Assembly: GCF_003967515.1 (NCBI RefSeq)
Contig: NZ_BIFQ01000001.1
Span: 2,852,001 to 2,916,000 of the forward strand
Direction of reading: 5' to 3'
Source: Dictyobacter aurantiacus
GTDB taxonomy: Bacteria; Chloroflexota; Ktedonobacteria; Ktedonobacterales; Ktedonobacteraceae
DNA: 64,000 nucleotides
Part shown: one piece after another, positions 33,361 through 38,573 of the stretch
Position numbering within the stretch: the first letter of the stretch is position 1
Layout: each line of letters begins with the position of its first letter
Position numbers and translations under genes: made by a program
Notes under the pieces: generated by a model
Told to the model about the DNA's origin: nothing
Seen by the model: only the letters and a program-made list of their open reading frames with translations
Database searches by the model: none

Positions 33361-34569
33361 TCAATTGAGGGTGGTGGTGCCGGTCAGGAGCAGGCTGTCG
33401 GGTGCTACGCAGCTGATCCGGGCTGTGGACCCCATGCTTGCCGAGGTCAGGGTGAGATTGTTGCCTGCTATGTTTCCGATCTTGTCATTGAGCGCCTGTT
33501 CTATCTGCTGATTGTAGTTGTCGGCCGGGAAGGTGAAAATCAGCACGTTGAGCGTGGTCTTGTCGACGTGGAACTGCAGCTTGCCATCCGCGACCTGTGG
33601 CTCCATGATTGTGGTGGCGGTCCCTAGCTTGAGCATGGGGGTGCCAAACACCAGGCTGATAATGTCGGCGGTGACGACCAGCTTACCATTTTGCGTGCTG
33701 AGCTGGATGTTTTTTGCCTCCATGCTGCTGTTGAGGGAGAGCGTCCCTACACCGCCGGCGACCGTGTTGAGGGAGCTAAATGGTACCTCAACATAGACTG
33801 GAACAGCCTGCTGATCGATGGGACTGGCAGCTGCGCCTGGCATGGTCATGCTCAGGGGTACTGTGTCCATGGCTGGCGTGTTACCGCTGTGCGCCTGCTG
33901 GTATGAACCATGGAGACTGCCCTGGGCTTGAGTGCCTGTTTGCGGAATCTGCAGCCCCAGATCTAGATTGGCGTCGCCACAGGTAGTGGTGGTCTGCACG
34001 CTGGTGAGCTTCCCTATCGGCACGTGCAGGGTGGTCAGGGGACCCGTGATGAGCGCCGGGCTACCGGGCAGGGCCTGTCCGTTAACCTGGATGGTTGAGT
34101 CATTGAGGATGCTGAAGGTGACGAGCATGTGGCTATTGATTGGTTTAGGATCGCCGGGATAGAGACTGAGCCTGATGCCTGTGTTGAATCCACCAGCCTG
34201 GGGTGTTAGATCGGTCAGGGTCGCCGCTGGCTGGATCAGCGCGTTGGCGATCTGCCCGATCCAGCCCTGATCGCCCGCCGGTGCGCTGTGCACGATGCCG
34301 TTGATGGTGCTGGCGCTGAGGTGCGGTACCTGCTGGTTAATCGTATTCTGGAAGCGCTGGCGCAGCACATCCCCGGTCAAAAAGACGCGCGCGTCGAGCA
34401 TCCCGGCTTCTTTTGTCTGCTGCGTCTCTCGTGTGGAGGCATCTACAGGCGCCGCCATACCAATCAGGATCAAGCTGATGAGCAGTATCCAGCTGATCTG
34501 TATGGCGCGTCTAAACCTTCTTGTCATCTCTCGATCCTCGATCCTTACTTCTACTTTTTTCCCTGCCAT
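33361..34569 (-). CDS. secreted or anchored protein, possibly lipid-binding
   Basis: A 402-residue protein with one N-terminal membrane/signal segment at about 26-43 (ISWILLISLILIGMAAPV) and a large extracytoplasmic part. Blocks such as DARVFLTGDVLRQRFQNTIN and NYNQQIEQALNDKIGN are spaced like the alpha/beta lipid-binding modules of LmeA/DUF2993-type proteins; I regard this as a possibility, not an identification. It starts 30 bp after the stop of an MFS transporter on the same strand. The last 190 residues of that transporter form a similar outside domain, so the two probably act together, for example in handling a hydrophobic molecule at the cell surface. Confidence 0.7.
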   Translation of the reverse strand: MAGKKVEVRIEDREMTRRFRRAIQISWILLISLILIGMAAPVDASTRETQQTKEAGMLDARVFLTGDVLRQRFQNTINQQVPHLSASTINGIVHSAPAGDQGWIGQIANALIQPAATLTDLTPQAGGFNTGIRLSLYPGDPKPINSHMLVTFSILNDSTIQVNGQALPGSPALITGPLTTLHVPIGKLTSVQTTTTCGDANLDLGLQIPQTGTQAQGSLHGSYQQAHSGNTPAMDTVPLSMTMPGAAASPIDQQAVPVYVEVPFSSLNTVAGGVGTLSLNSSMEAKNIQLSTQNGKLVVTADIISLVFGTPMLKLGTATTIMEPQVADGKLQFHVDKTTLNVLIFTFPADNYNQQIEQALNDKIGNIAGNNLTLTSASMGSTARISCVAPDSLLLTGTTTLN

Positions 34570-34599
34570 TATATATCTCGCACAATATCTACGTACCAG

Positions 34600-37044
34600 C
34601 TATTTGTGTAGTAGTGTTTTGAAATCAAGCGTGTCGTTAAAACAGATTGGCGATGGGAGCGATTGCGCCGGGATACCTTGAATGGTTGTGGCCTCTATCT
34701 GTAAGACGAACGTGATGGCCCCCTTACTACACACCATACTCTTACTAGTATGGACTGAGACGATTTTGATGCCCTTGAGCTGCTGATGAATGGTGGGCAT
34801 GACCGTCGCGATCAGGAGCTGGTTCAGGGCCTTTTGCATGGTTGTGGCCGTGACCGGTCCAGAGTCGATCCCATCGCGCCTGACATGCCGCACCGATAGC
34901 TGCATATTTTGTTGCTTATCCAGATACATCTTGCTCTGGATTTCAATCGGTAGCGTGCGATGGATGCCCTGCAGGTCTATCTGCAGGTTGAAGTTGATGT
35001 TCAGCCCATCGTTCTCCATTGGCGTGACCTTCAGGTCCTTGAGAAATTTCTGCTGCTGGCCAAGCTGCGTGGCGAAGACAGAGGTGAGCGCCGTCTGATT
35101 CAACGCCAGGTCGATCTTGCGCGTTGCCGTGACCGTTTGTGTGCCTGTTCCGCCCGGATTGCTGACTAGCAGGTAGGTGGCCAGCAGGCTACTGGCGATG
35201 AGCATAGCGACCAGCGCGATGGTGACCACGTTGCGCGTGGGTGCCGCCGTTCGCTGTCCCACGGATACCGCTGTTGGTATCTGATCGATGTCCACCGGAT
35301 TGAACGTGGAGGCAGCTGGTGCGGCCCGACCCCAGAGAAACAGGGCCGGAATGATGGCGATCAGGCAGAGGATGGCCGAGATAAAGAAGACGGTACAATA
35401 GACGGTGTGCGCGGCCTCGATCAGGTAGTGCGCATAGCCAGTGAGCGGATCGCCGCTGCTGGCCTGCGGTGAGGTGGGATAGGCCAGCGAGAGCTGACGG
35501 AAGTAGGCCAGCGCCCATGAGGTGAGGGCGGCCAGTCCCAGGATCATGCCGACCATCCTGAGAGCGGTTACGACTGAGGAGCTCATACCGACCTGTGTGC
35601 TGCGTACCGCGTTGATGGCGGTGGTCCCGATTGGCGCGATAACCAGTCCGAAGCCAAAGCCCGCTGTAACGGTCGCCATCGTCATCTGCGTCCAATCGAC
35701 ATGGGTGGGCCAGTGACTCATCAGATAGAAGCCGGCCGCCGTAAAGAAGAGCCCCACAATGGCGGTGACGCGGCTGGTAATGTGATGGCTGAGCCAGCCG
35801 CCGAGCAGCGCACCAATGGGAATCATCACGGTCAGGCGCAGCAGGGCCAGTCCACTATCCAGTACCGAGCTCTGCAGAACCGTATCGACGAAGATAGGAA
35901 TATTCGTCATGGCGATGATCAGTGCGGCCCCCACCAGCAGACTGACCAGGGACGAGGCGCTAAAGGGCCAGCGCTTGAAGAGCTGTAGATCAACCACGGG
36001 CCAGCGCACCCTGCGCTCAACCAGGATAAAGGCCAACAAGAAGACCAGCGCCAGCACCAGTGCCAGCGGATTATTCTGTGGCGCGCTCCCACTGGCCGCC
36101 GTGGGTCCCAGCGAGGTCCCCTGCTGGGCCAGCCCCATGCTCAGACAGGTCAGGGCCAGTCCCAGGAAGATCGCACCCAGCCAGTCGATGTTCTCGGGTA
36201 GCTTTGTGCCGCGTGGGATAAAAAACCAGGCCGCCATAAACAGGGCGATAACCAGTGGTACATTCAGGTAAAAGATATACTGCCAGCCCAGGTGCTCGAC
36301 GATCAGCGCGCCATAGAGCGGCCCAATCGCGCCCCCCGCCTCGGTGACCGCTCCGATGACACCCAGGGCCAGGGCGCGCTTCTTATGGGTGTAGACATCG
36401 CTGGCGATCGCCATCGCTACCGGTACGATGGCCCCTCCTCCGATTGCCTGTATTACACGCGCTGCAATCAACCAGATCAATCCGGGAGACGAGATATCAA
36501 CCTGTAGCGGGGCCAGGAATTGCAGCGAAATATCTTTGCCCAGTATAGGTGCCACGCCACAGCCTACCGAGCCGATACCAAAGATAACCAGGCACATCAG
36601 GAAGATACGTCGACGTCCATAAATATCCGAGACGCGTCCCATCAGTGGCATCGCCACCACAAAGCCTAGTAGATACGCACTGATAATCCAGGCCGCGTGA
36701 TCCAGCTGGGTAAGGGGAATATTGAGGTCAACGATCACCTGTGGCAGCGCGGTCACTACCACCGTTTGGTCCAGAGCCGTCAGGAAGACCCCGATGCAGG
36801 CAACGATGATCGCCGCCAGCGCTGCCCTGCTCGATCGTGGATCTATCCTGCTAGTCAGCTGAGGAGGCTGCGTCGACAGATCCTCCACCGTCACATCTGA
36901 CGGCAAAATAACTGTGCGCCTGCCACCGGCCGATGTAGCCTCACCAACCCGGTCAGGCTCAGTCACCTCATCCTGATCCGTAGCATCAAACATAGACCGC
37001 TTATACCGTGAAGAAGTCTCATGATCATCCTCAAATGTATACAT
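34600..37044 (-). CDS. DHA2-type MFS transporter with large outside domain
   Basis: An 814-residue transporter. After a cytoplasmic tail of about 70 residues come 13-14 helices of the drug:H+ antiporter-2 (QacA/EmrB) type. Motif A is GRVSDIYGRRRIF and motif C-like glycines are present (GPLYGALIVEHLGWQYIFYLNVP). Helix 1 carries FLTALDQTVVVTALP, the D1 motif of the group. After the last helix (VTIALVAMLIASSLLATYLL) follows an extra domain of about 190 residues outside the cell (ALNQTALTSVFATQLGQQQK onward) that ordinary QacA proteins lack. The gene after it encodes a secreted protein of similar style. Drug or lipid export is likely. Confidence 0.9.
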   Translation of the reverse strand: MYTFEDDHETSSRYKRSMFDATDQDEVTEPDRVGEATSAGGRRTVILPSDVTVEDLSTQPPQLTSRIDPRSSRAALAAIIVACIGVFLTALDQTVVVTALPQVIVDLNIPLTQLDHAAWIISAYLLGFVVAMPLMGRVSDIYGRRRIFLMCLVIFGIGSVGCGVAPILGKDISLQFLAPLQVDISSPGLIWLIAARVIQAIGGGAIVPVAMAIASDVYTHKKRALALGVIGAVTEAGGAIGPLYGALIVEHLGWQYIFYLNVPLVIALFMAAWFFIPRGTKLPENIDWLGAIFLGLALTCLSMGLAQQGTSLGPTAASGSAPQNNPLALVLALVFLLAFILVERRVRWPVVDLQLFKRWPFSASSLVSLLVGAALIIAMTNIPIFVDTVLQSSVLDSGLALLRLTVMIPIGALLGGWLSHHITSRVTAIVGLFFTAAGFYLMSHWPTHVDWTQMTMATVTAGFGFGLVIAPIGTTAINAVRSTQVGMSSSVVTALRMVGMILGLAALTSWALAYFRQLSLAYPTSPQASSGDPLTGYAHYLIEAAHTVYCTVFFISAILCLIAIIPALFLWGRAAPAASTFNPVDIDQIPTAVSVGQRTAAPTRNVVTIALVAMLIASSLLATYLLVSNPGGTGTQTVTATRKIDLALNQTALTSVFATQLGQQQKFLKDLKVTPMENDGLNINFNLQIDLQGIHRTLPIEIQSKMYLDKQQNMQLSVRHVRRDGIDSGPVTATTMQKALNQLLIATVMPTIHQQLKGIKIVSVHTSKSMVCSKGAITFVLQIEATTIQGIPAQSLPSPICFNDTLDFKTLLHK

Positions 37045-37276
37045 TTATCCCCCTGCGGAAAATATCCCCTCCCGTAGGTTCGGGCCTTGAGCCCGATTTT
37101 CCCTCGCCGCCCGAAAACGTGACATCATAGATTCGAGCCTTGCGCCCTGTTGCCTTCTAGTATAGTGCATTACGCTCAATTAGCAACCTTTTGAGGCTAT
37201 TATCTAAACAATGAACGCCCTTAAAAGCATCTTTCGGGGAAAACAGGAGTTTTGTCCCCATGGGCGCGGAGAAAAA

Positions 37277-37330
37277 ATGAAGGTGAGGTGCCCAAAGTCG
37301 CATACGCGACTTTGGGCACCTCACCTTCAT
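37277..37330 (-). terminator. 25-bp perfect hairpin with T6, second of two
   Basis: Arms 37277-37301 and 37306-37330 perfectly complementary, 4-nt loop. On the minus strand six T follow. Second terminator of the tatD-cysS-type unit. Confidence 0.92.
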
Positions 37331-37340
37331 AAAAAAAATA

Positions 37341-37360
37341 TGGGGGCGTCAGCGCCCCCA
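37341..37360 (-). terminator. short GC hairpin with T8, first of two
   Basis: Stem TGGGGGCG and complement with a TCAG loop. On the minus strand it is followed by TATTTTTTTT. It stands 29 bp behind the stop of the cysteine ligase gene and is directly followed by the longer hairpin. Confidence 0.92.
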
Positions 37361-37388
37361 CGCTGGCCTCCCGCCAGGGATAATACCG

Positions 37389-38573
37389 CTACGCAGTCAA
37401 CCCTAGCACGCCGGCCAGGCGCAACACCTCAGAGCCAAGCTGGCGATCCCTGCCCTGCAGTGCATCCTGGGCGGCATGCCGCAGCAACAAGATCGCCTCA
37501 GGCGTATTCAAATCATTCTCCATCGCCGCGATAAAGCGATTATGCAACATGTTATCTTCGCCCTCCAACCTTTGCCCGACCATCTCGCGCACCTGGGTAA
37601 AGAAATAGGCGGTCTCGGCCGCGATCTTGAGGTCCTGCGGGAAACATTCCCAGGGATAGCGATAGTGATGGCTCTGCAGCACAATGCGAATGGCGTCGGC
37701 GCTATACTCTTTGAGCAAGTTTCTGACCAGGGTCAGGTTCCCCAGCGACTTGCTCATCTTCTCACCGTCCTGGTAAACCATGCCAACATGCATCCAGGTA
37801 TTGACGAATGGAGCTTTACCGCTGTAATGTTCCGACTGAGCGATCTCGCAGGTGTGGTGAGGGAAGGTCAGGTCCGCGCCACCACCGTGAATATCGATCT
37901 GCTCTCCCAGGTAGTGCATGGACATGCTGCTACATTCGATATGCCAGCCGGGGCGTCCAGGACCCCATGGGCTCTCCCAGGAGGGCTCGCCCGGAGCCTT
38001 TGCCTGCCAGAGCACGAAGTCCAGCGGATCGCGCTTGCGTTTGTCGTCGGGGAAATTGCCGCGTTCATTGGCGATGGCGAGCATCGATTGATAATCGTTG
38101 AGACCAACGGCCTGTGCCATCTTGCCGAAATCTTTATCCTCGCGCACACTGTAGAAGACACAGCCCTCGCTCTCATAAGCCAGTCCACGCTCTATCAGGG
38201 CCTGCGTCAGTTTAATGATGCGTTCGATCTCATCGGTTGCGCGTGCGTACACATCCGGCCGACGCCAGTTAAGCGAATCCATCTCACCCAGGAAGCGCTC
38301 GATCTCGCGATTGCCCAGTTCGTCCCAGGCGATGCCAAGCTCGCCCGCTTTACGAATTACATCATCATCGACGTCAGTAACGTTCTGCACATATTTGACC
38401 GTATGGCCCTTGTATTCTAAATAACGGATCAGCGTATCAAAGGTGATATATGTGAAGGCGTGACCCAGATGCGTGGTGTCATAAGGAGTTACACCGCACA
38501 CATAAATAGTTACCGTGTCACCGATGGGCTTGAATTCCTGCAATGATTGGGTCAGCGTATTAAATAGTTTCAT
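37389..38573 (-). CDS. CysRS-like / MshC-like cysteine ligase
   Basis: A 394-residue class I synthetase-fold enzyme. YVCGVTPYDTTHLGHAFTY at 24-42 has the zinc cysteine Cys26 and the HIGH motif as HLGH at 35-38. IECSSMSMHYLG, GGGADLTFPHHTCEIAQSEH and KMSKSLGN follow. It stops about 70 residues short of typical CysRS, lacking most of the anticodon-binding domain. The VTPYDTTHLGHA signature is closer to MshC (mycothiol ligase) than to CysRS (GPTVYD). The IAQSE segment is CysRS-like. It may act as MshC-type ligase, or be a reduced CysRS. The first four bases overlap the end of tatD, indicating an operon. Confidence 0.85.
   Translation of the reverse strand: MKLFNTLTQSLQEFKPIGDTVTIYVCGVTPYDTTHLGHAFTYITFDTLIRYLEYKGHTVKYVQNVTDVDDDVIRKAGELGIAWDELGNREIERFLGEMDSLNWRRPDVYARATDEIERIIKLTQALIERGLAYESEGCVFYSVREDKDFGKMAQAVGLNDYQSMLAIANERGNFPDDKRKRDPLDFVLWQAKAPGEPSWESPWGPGRPGWHIECSSMSMHYLGEQIDIHGGGADLTFPHHTCEIAQSEHYSGKAPFVNTWMHVGMVYQDGEKMSKSLGNLTLVRNLLKEYSADAIRIVLQSHHYRYPWECFPQDLKIAAETAYFFTQVREMVGQRLEGEDNMLHNRFIAAMENDLNTPEAILLLRHAAQDALQGRDRQLGSEVLRLAGVLGLTA

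Follow-up and report, generated by a model that had tools for sequence, protein, structure and literature searches.

A 64,000-nucleotide stretch of the Dictyobacter aurantiacus genome (contig NZ_BIFQ01000001.1, positions 2,852,001 to 2,916,000; hereafter the window) carries two consecutive minus-strand genes, one encoding a major facilitator superfamily transporter (MFS) that ends in an outside domain (CTD) and the other a secreted protein (SEC). Could these two genes encode a lipid exporter with acceptors of its own? The initial annotation had described an 814-residue DHA2 transporter ending in an outside domain of about 190 residues, followed after 30 bp by a secreted protein of 402 residues. 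The first part was borne out, with a CTD of 187 residues. As to the second, the gene is present and the N terminus of SEC forms a signal-like hydrophobic helix, but the length and the 30-bp gap hold for the genes as called. The true SEC start is probably Met15 (34527), giving 388 residues, because this Met is the start in most relatives and has a better ribosome-binding site ahead of it; the real gap between the genes would therefore be nearer 72 bp. The features of the locus, with transmembrane segments abbreviated TM, are as follows.

34600-37044, minus strand: MFS-CTD gene, 814 residues; predicted DHA2 transporter of the Rv1410 type, fused to an outside domain (E value of 2.4e-70 to PDB 8pnl, MHAS2168)
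35332-36825, minus strand: 14-TM transporter core, residues ~74-571 (Pfam MFS_1, hydropathy)
36340-36342, minus strand: Glu235 codon, counterpart by alignment of ion-lock Glu157 of MHAS2168 and Glu147 of Rv1410
35557-35559, minus strand: Arg496 codon, counterpart by alignment of ion-lock Arg426 of MHAS2168 and Arg417 of Rv1410
35386-35517, minus strand: predicted TM11-TM12 outside extension, residues 510-553 (44 residues, aligned Trp to Phe)
35164-35232, minus strand: fifteenth TM, tethering CTD, residues ~605-627 (hydropathy; cytoplasmic side basic)
34603-35163, minus strand: CTD, predicted outside TULIP-like domain, residues 628-814 (AlphaFold2 model, Foldseek, alignment), with invariant Cys772 and Cys801
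33361-34569, minus strand: SEC gene, two-domain secreted protein, 402 residues as called; probable start at 34527 (388 residues)
33934-34401, minus strand: SEC domain 1, residues 57-212, predicted TULIP-like without the second helix, with invariant Cys197
33364-33807, minus strand: SEC domain 2, residues 255-402, predicted beta-alpha-4beta-alpha-2beta as in CTD, with invariant Cys387 at the position of CTD Cys772

Residues 83-503 of the transporter match MFS_1 (PF07690; 2.8e-48), and hydropathy together with the positive-inside rule places 14 TMs, a cytoplasmic linker, the fifteenth TM and the outside domain in that order. The best solved relative is MHAS2168 of M. hassiacum (240.8 bits), a homologue of Rv1410 named as a triacylglyceride transporter, and the core aligns with it end to end at 34.7% identity over 495 columns. 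The next solved match is the DHA2 protein EfpA, at 93.2 bits, whose aligned structure lacks a fused outside domain. A hallmark of the MHAS2168 type is the Glu157-Arg426 ion lock, which is conserved in 17 mycobacterial homologues and missing from 46 characterized MFS transporters (Remm et al. 2023, PMC10576003). Both lock residues, the Glu of TM5 and the Arg of TM11, are kept in the window protein, in all CTD-type transporters and in all canonical Ktedonobacterales transporters (those without CTD) that cover the sites; in EfpA, the Glu site holds Ala and the Arg site Gln. The Rv1410 type is also defined by TM11 and TM12 reaching ~20 Å beyond the membrane, and what we compared here is the length of the aligned stretch, which is 52 residues for MHAS2168, 48 for most relatives, 44 for the window protein and 35 for EfpA. 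Judged by its sequence, the transporter is of the Rv1410 type and no generic drug pump. We also observed that CTD-type transporters share a conserved cytoplasmic N-terminal start, MYTxEDDxxTSSR (window 36985-37044, minus strand; residues 1-20), which canonical ones lack.

We then asked how CTD and SEC are distributed. Both are found in the same 18 of 47 genomes of the class Ktedonobacteria, all of them Ktedonobacteraceae; wherever the region is assembled, the genes are neighbors, with 0 to ~300 bp between them. Across these genomes, identities range from 33 to 82% for CTD and from 37 to 73% for SEC. The pairing exceeds chance, because both parts are conserved and adjacent in the same 18 genomes. 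Among 301 Chloroflexota, matches to the CTD profile were confined to Ktedonobacteraceae; the named relatives of SEC are in D. kobayashii, D. vulcani, D. arantiisoli, Ktedonobacter, Thermosporothrix and genome bins of Ktedonobacteraceae or Ktedonobacterales. Within the window genome, SEC has no paralogue and CTD a single negligible match.

In seven genomes (G019, G020, G021, G022, G027, G044 and G046), a lipoprotein gene of the PF07161 family (LppX_LprAFG) lies directly upstream of the CTD-type transporter, so that the order reads LprG-MFS-CTD-SEC. The four of these lipoproteins tested directly against Pfam gave E values of 3e-14 to 2e-19, above the curated cut-off. No such lipoprotein adjoins the CTD-type locus in Dictyobacter, Ktedonobacter or Thermosporothrix; at the window locus, the interval from 37045 to 37389, where the next gene ends, encodes none. 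Five genomes with CTD and SEC (G024, G025, G032, G033 and G034) have no detectable PF07161 anywhere. In Ktedonobacterales at large, PF07161 genes are followed within 6 to 123 bp by an MFS of 543 to 611 residues without CTD, and the window genome itself carries such an ordinary pair at a second locus (G000:C1, ~2,312,996-2,315,747, ~2.313 Mb). The canonical pair resembles the window locus in its transporter family (52 to 55% identity) and ion lock; it differs in having PF07161 19 bp upstream of the transporter and a DUF4097 gene after it, with neither CTD nor SEC. This DUF4097 (toast-rack) gene completes a trio at ~2,312,996-2,316,993, outside the window (L125, 4997-8994), and its product has a charged N terminus and one TM. 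The trio recurs in several Ktedonobacteraceae (at five loci), and at one locus of G019 (L110, 3105-5317) an LprG-family gene stands directly before a DUF4097-like gene with no MFS between them, as if the canonical exporter had been lost there.

A tree of the MFS cores places the CTD-type proteins in one clade beside the canonical transporters, with support of 100/100 when two distant references are excluded. With these references, support falls to 46/28 because their branches are long. PF07161 is present in 115 of the 301 Chloroflexota, and when ten other Chloroflexota loci were inspected, several showed a related MFS next to an LprG-like gene or a PF07161 match; some of these LprG-linked transporters have Thr at the ion-lock Glu site. 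The simplest history that we infer is a single duplication of an LprG-MFS pair in Ktedonobacteraceae, followed by gain of CTD and SEC and by later loss of the adjacent LprG gene in Dictyobacter, Ktedonobacter and Thermosporothrix. Our literature search found no paper linking LprG with Chloroflexi.

Structural models suggested what the added parts may be. The AlphaFold2 model of CTD (mean pLDDT of 84.7, pTM of 0.77) runs from a strand and a helix through four strands and a long helix to two final strands. The AlphaFold model of SEC (pLDDT of 72.6) has two domains separated by a disordered linker; domain 2 shows the same order of elements as CTD, and domain 1 likewise, minus the second helix. 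Each unit has an invariant Cys within or next to the loop that joins its final two strands (Cys772 in the transporter, Cys197 and Cys387 in SEC). Foldseek comparison of CTD with the PDB ranked LBP, LBP and SPLUNC1 first to third, with YceB, Takeout and Der p 7 lower down, and the first four matches of SEC were LBP, OrfX1-OrfX3, CETP and YceB. All of these proteins belong to the TULIP superfamily. The models make it likely, but unproven, that CTD and SEC adopt TULIP-like lipid-binding folds. Their predicted helix-in-curved-sheet plan is like that of bacterial TULIPs (reviewed in PMC6791001) such as YceB/DUF1439, P47/OrfX, DUF4403, DUF2140 and DUF2993/LmeA; unlike those proteins, CTD and SEC have no detectable sequence membership in the corresponding Pfam families.

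Two specific kinships were considered and set aside. For LmeA/DUF2993 (PF11209), neither CTD nor SEC gave a sequence match, and the family was not found in the window genome; sub-threshold, weak PF11209 matches were seen at two loci in genomes from another family of the order. For a diverged LprG (PF07161), there was no Pfam match, and neither LprG nor LppX appears in the list of the 50 best fold matches. A sequence-profile search of the PDB with CTD or SEC and a search of a viral fold library returned no match.

With transporter kinship, ion-lock residues, operon context, co-conservation and a single clade established computationally, we consider it fairly probable that the system is a derived LprG-Rv1410-type exporter of envelope lipids, with TULIP-like domains acting alongside LprG or in its place. 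How might such an exporter work? Following the published Rv1410 mechanism (PMC10576003), we infer a lipid substrate, an order of hand-off and a replacement of LprG. The MFS core would draw a highly hydrophobic lipid, probably one with several acyl chains, out of the interior of the cytoplasmic membrane and into its central cavity; protons acting via the Glu235-Arg496 ion lock would drive the lift to the outer face, which would take place as the lock forms. The lipid would then exit along the TM11-TM12 extension to the tethered CTD, from which the two-domain SEC would pick it up for delivery to the thick wall or the surface. The ancestral acceptor would have been an LprG-type lipoprotein, to which TULIP-like domains were added in this lineage; in Dictyobacter, Ktedonobacter and Thermosporothrix, which lost the adjacent lipoprotein, these domains would replace LprG.

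Several results weigh against this reading. The best Foldseek E values for CTD and SEC are 1.7e-3 to 4.5e-3, with TM-scores of 0.2 to 0.3, and neither protein matches any Pfam or NCBIfam family. Profile comparison of CTD with the two halves of SEC was not significant (P values of 0.08 to 0.12), although the alignment of SEC domain 1 with CTD covers both over their full length and matches up the conserved Cys. In D. arantiisoli, SEC is intact, the transporter is deleted to a remnant of ~30 codons (L060, 7830-8013), and no other close MFS of this type was found there. In D. kobayashii, SEC is likewise intact and the transporter is split over three frames (L058, 5174-7709), a break that may stem from sequencing error. 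SEC may thus have a job of its own, because it is kept where the exporter is deleted or frame-broken. Finally, WS/DGAT (PF03007) was not found in the window genome or in any Ktedonobacteraceae genome searched, in searches that did recover PF03007 from a genome of the same order (G014).

These points also bear on what the initial annotation had proposed, namely, that the two genes form a two-part lipid-export system, similar in style to each other and comparable to mycobacterial exporters with lipid-binding partners. The similarity of CTD and SEC stands in their secondary-structure plan and the position of their Cys, and falls short of significant sequence homology. Their models share a plan with TULIP proteins as best matches, at E values near 2e-3 and the low TM-scores given above; kinship with LmeA found no support in the sequence. 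The mycobacterial analogy gains from the relationship to MHAS2168, the ion lock, the LprG genes upstream in relatives and the TULIP-like matches. An obligate pair was not established, since D. arantiisoli keeps an intact SEC without the exporter.

What would be exported? The nature of the substrate separates our reading from the alternative that survives best, the same system exporting a phosphatidylinositol (PI)-derived or other glycolipid instead of a neutral lipid, which we rate as possible but, as a complete account, rather unlikely. WS/DGAT-dependent triacylglyceride synthesis was discarded as support for the substrate because the enzyme was not found in the genomes searched, and triacylglyceride itself is unsupported for the same reason; this negative result also counts in favor of a glycolipid. 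A PI-derived glycolipid appears equally plausible as a neutral lipid, because LprG binds triacylated PI-mannosides and lipoarabinomannan (PMC4709180) and because phosphatidylinositol and unidentified glycolipids, along with the cell sugar mannose, occur in Dictyobacter halimunensis (PMC12453558). Against a glycolipid, the cavity of MHAS2168 is very hydrophobic and suits neutral lipids (PMC10576003), and nothing within the locus points to glycolipid synthesis.

A second alternative is that the transporter exports its lipid alone or with LprG-type lipoproteins and that CTD and SEC have no lipid pocket and serve in wall binding or assembly. The missing sequence match to lipid-binding families, the weak TM-scores and the SEC gene of D. 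arantiisoli would all fit. Yet CTD and SEC, modelled independently, both find their top matches in the same rare superfamily, and in the five genomes without detectable PF07161, they are the only obvious acceptor left; we find this alternative improbable. Least probable of all is a DHA2 efflux pump for multiple drugs or toxic compounds, with the outside domain and secreted partner as accessory scaffolds instead of lipid carriers: many EmrB/QacA-type NCBIfam models match the core, and an association with the efflux of ethidium and similar dyes has been reported for LprG-Rv1410 itself (PMC4709180), but EmrB (TIGR00711) scores 203.3 bits, under its curated cut-off of 230.2, the nearest solved protein is, by 147 bits, a lipid exporter, and the window transporter has the ion lock that characterized drug pumps lack.

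Two further features lie upstream of the transporter gene. A long inverted repeat, near perfect by eye, spans window positions ~37275-37335 (aaggtgaggtgcccaaagtcgc / gcgactttgggcacctcacctt, followed by a run of A) and is possibly a terminator or a repeat element. Beyond it, a gene at 37389-38573 (minus strand) encodes a short CysRS-like protein of 394 residues with the motif CGVTPYDTTHLGHA, which we presume to be nearer to MshC (mycothiol cysteine ligase) than to ordinary CysRS. The order TatD, CysRS-like gene, MFS, SEC is kept in Dictyobacter, and the CysRS-like gene and the exporter locus are also close to each other in Ktedonobacter.

Set beside the Mycobacterium LprG (Rv1411c)-Rv1410c operon (PDB 8PNL), the lipid exporter that we favor shares the ion-lock Glu and Arg and has a 14-TM DHA2 core for which MHAS2168 is the nearest solved relative and a candidate TM11-TM12 extension, together with a putative extracytoplasmic acceptor in the same operon and, in related genomes, an LprG-family gene upstream. 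It differs in its fifteenth TM and fused outside domain, in a neighboring candidate acceptor that lacks a lipobox and has two TULIP-like domains, in a locus without LprG and in its host, a Gram-stain-positive mycelial chloroflexotan in which no WS/DGAT was found. Our literature search found no description of a TULIP-MFS fusion. More tentatively, and with less than even confidence, we suggest an MFS lipid exporter with a covalently attached acceptor, in which the role of LprG passed to the tethered TULIP-like CTD and to a secreted carrier with tandem TULIP-like domains. Two unrelated carrier folds would then serve one transporter family, and D. kobayashii, strain brp13 and Ktedonobacter would run without a detectable LprG-family lipoprotein.

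These findings bear on the question of how strongly hydrophobic lipids get out of the cytoplasmic membrane and through the wall. In mycobacteria, LprG and Rv1410 seem not to bind each other strongly (PMC10576003); an acceptor apparently fused to the pump would hold the hand-off in a set geometry and open it to direct tests. Our data also indicate that Rv1410-type export extends beyond mycobacteria: MFS genes paired with LprG are widespread among Ktedonobacterales and present in other Chloroflexota, in hosts that stain Gram positive and grow as mycelia.

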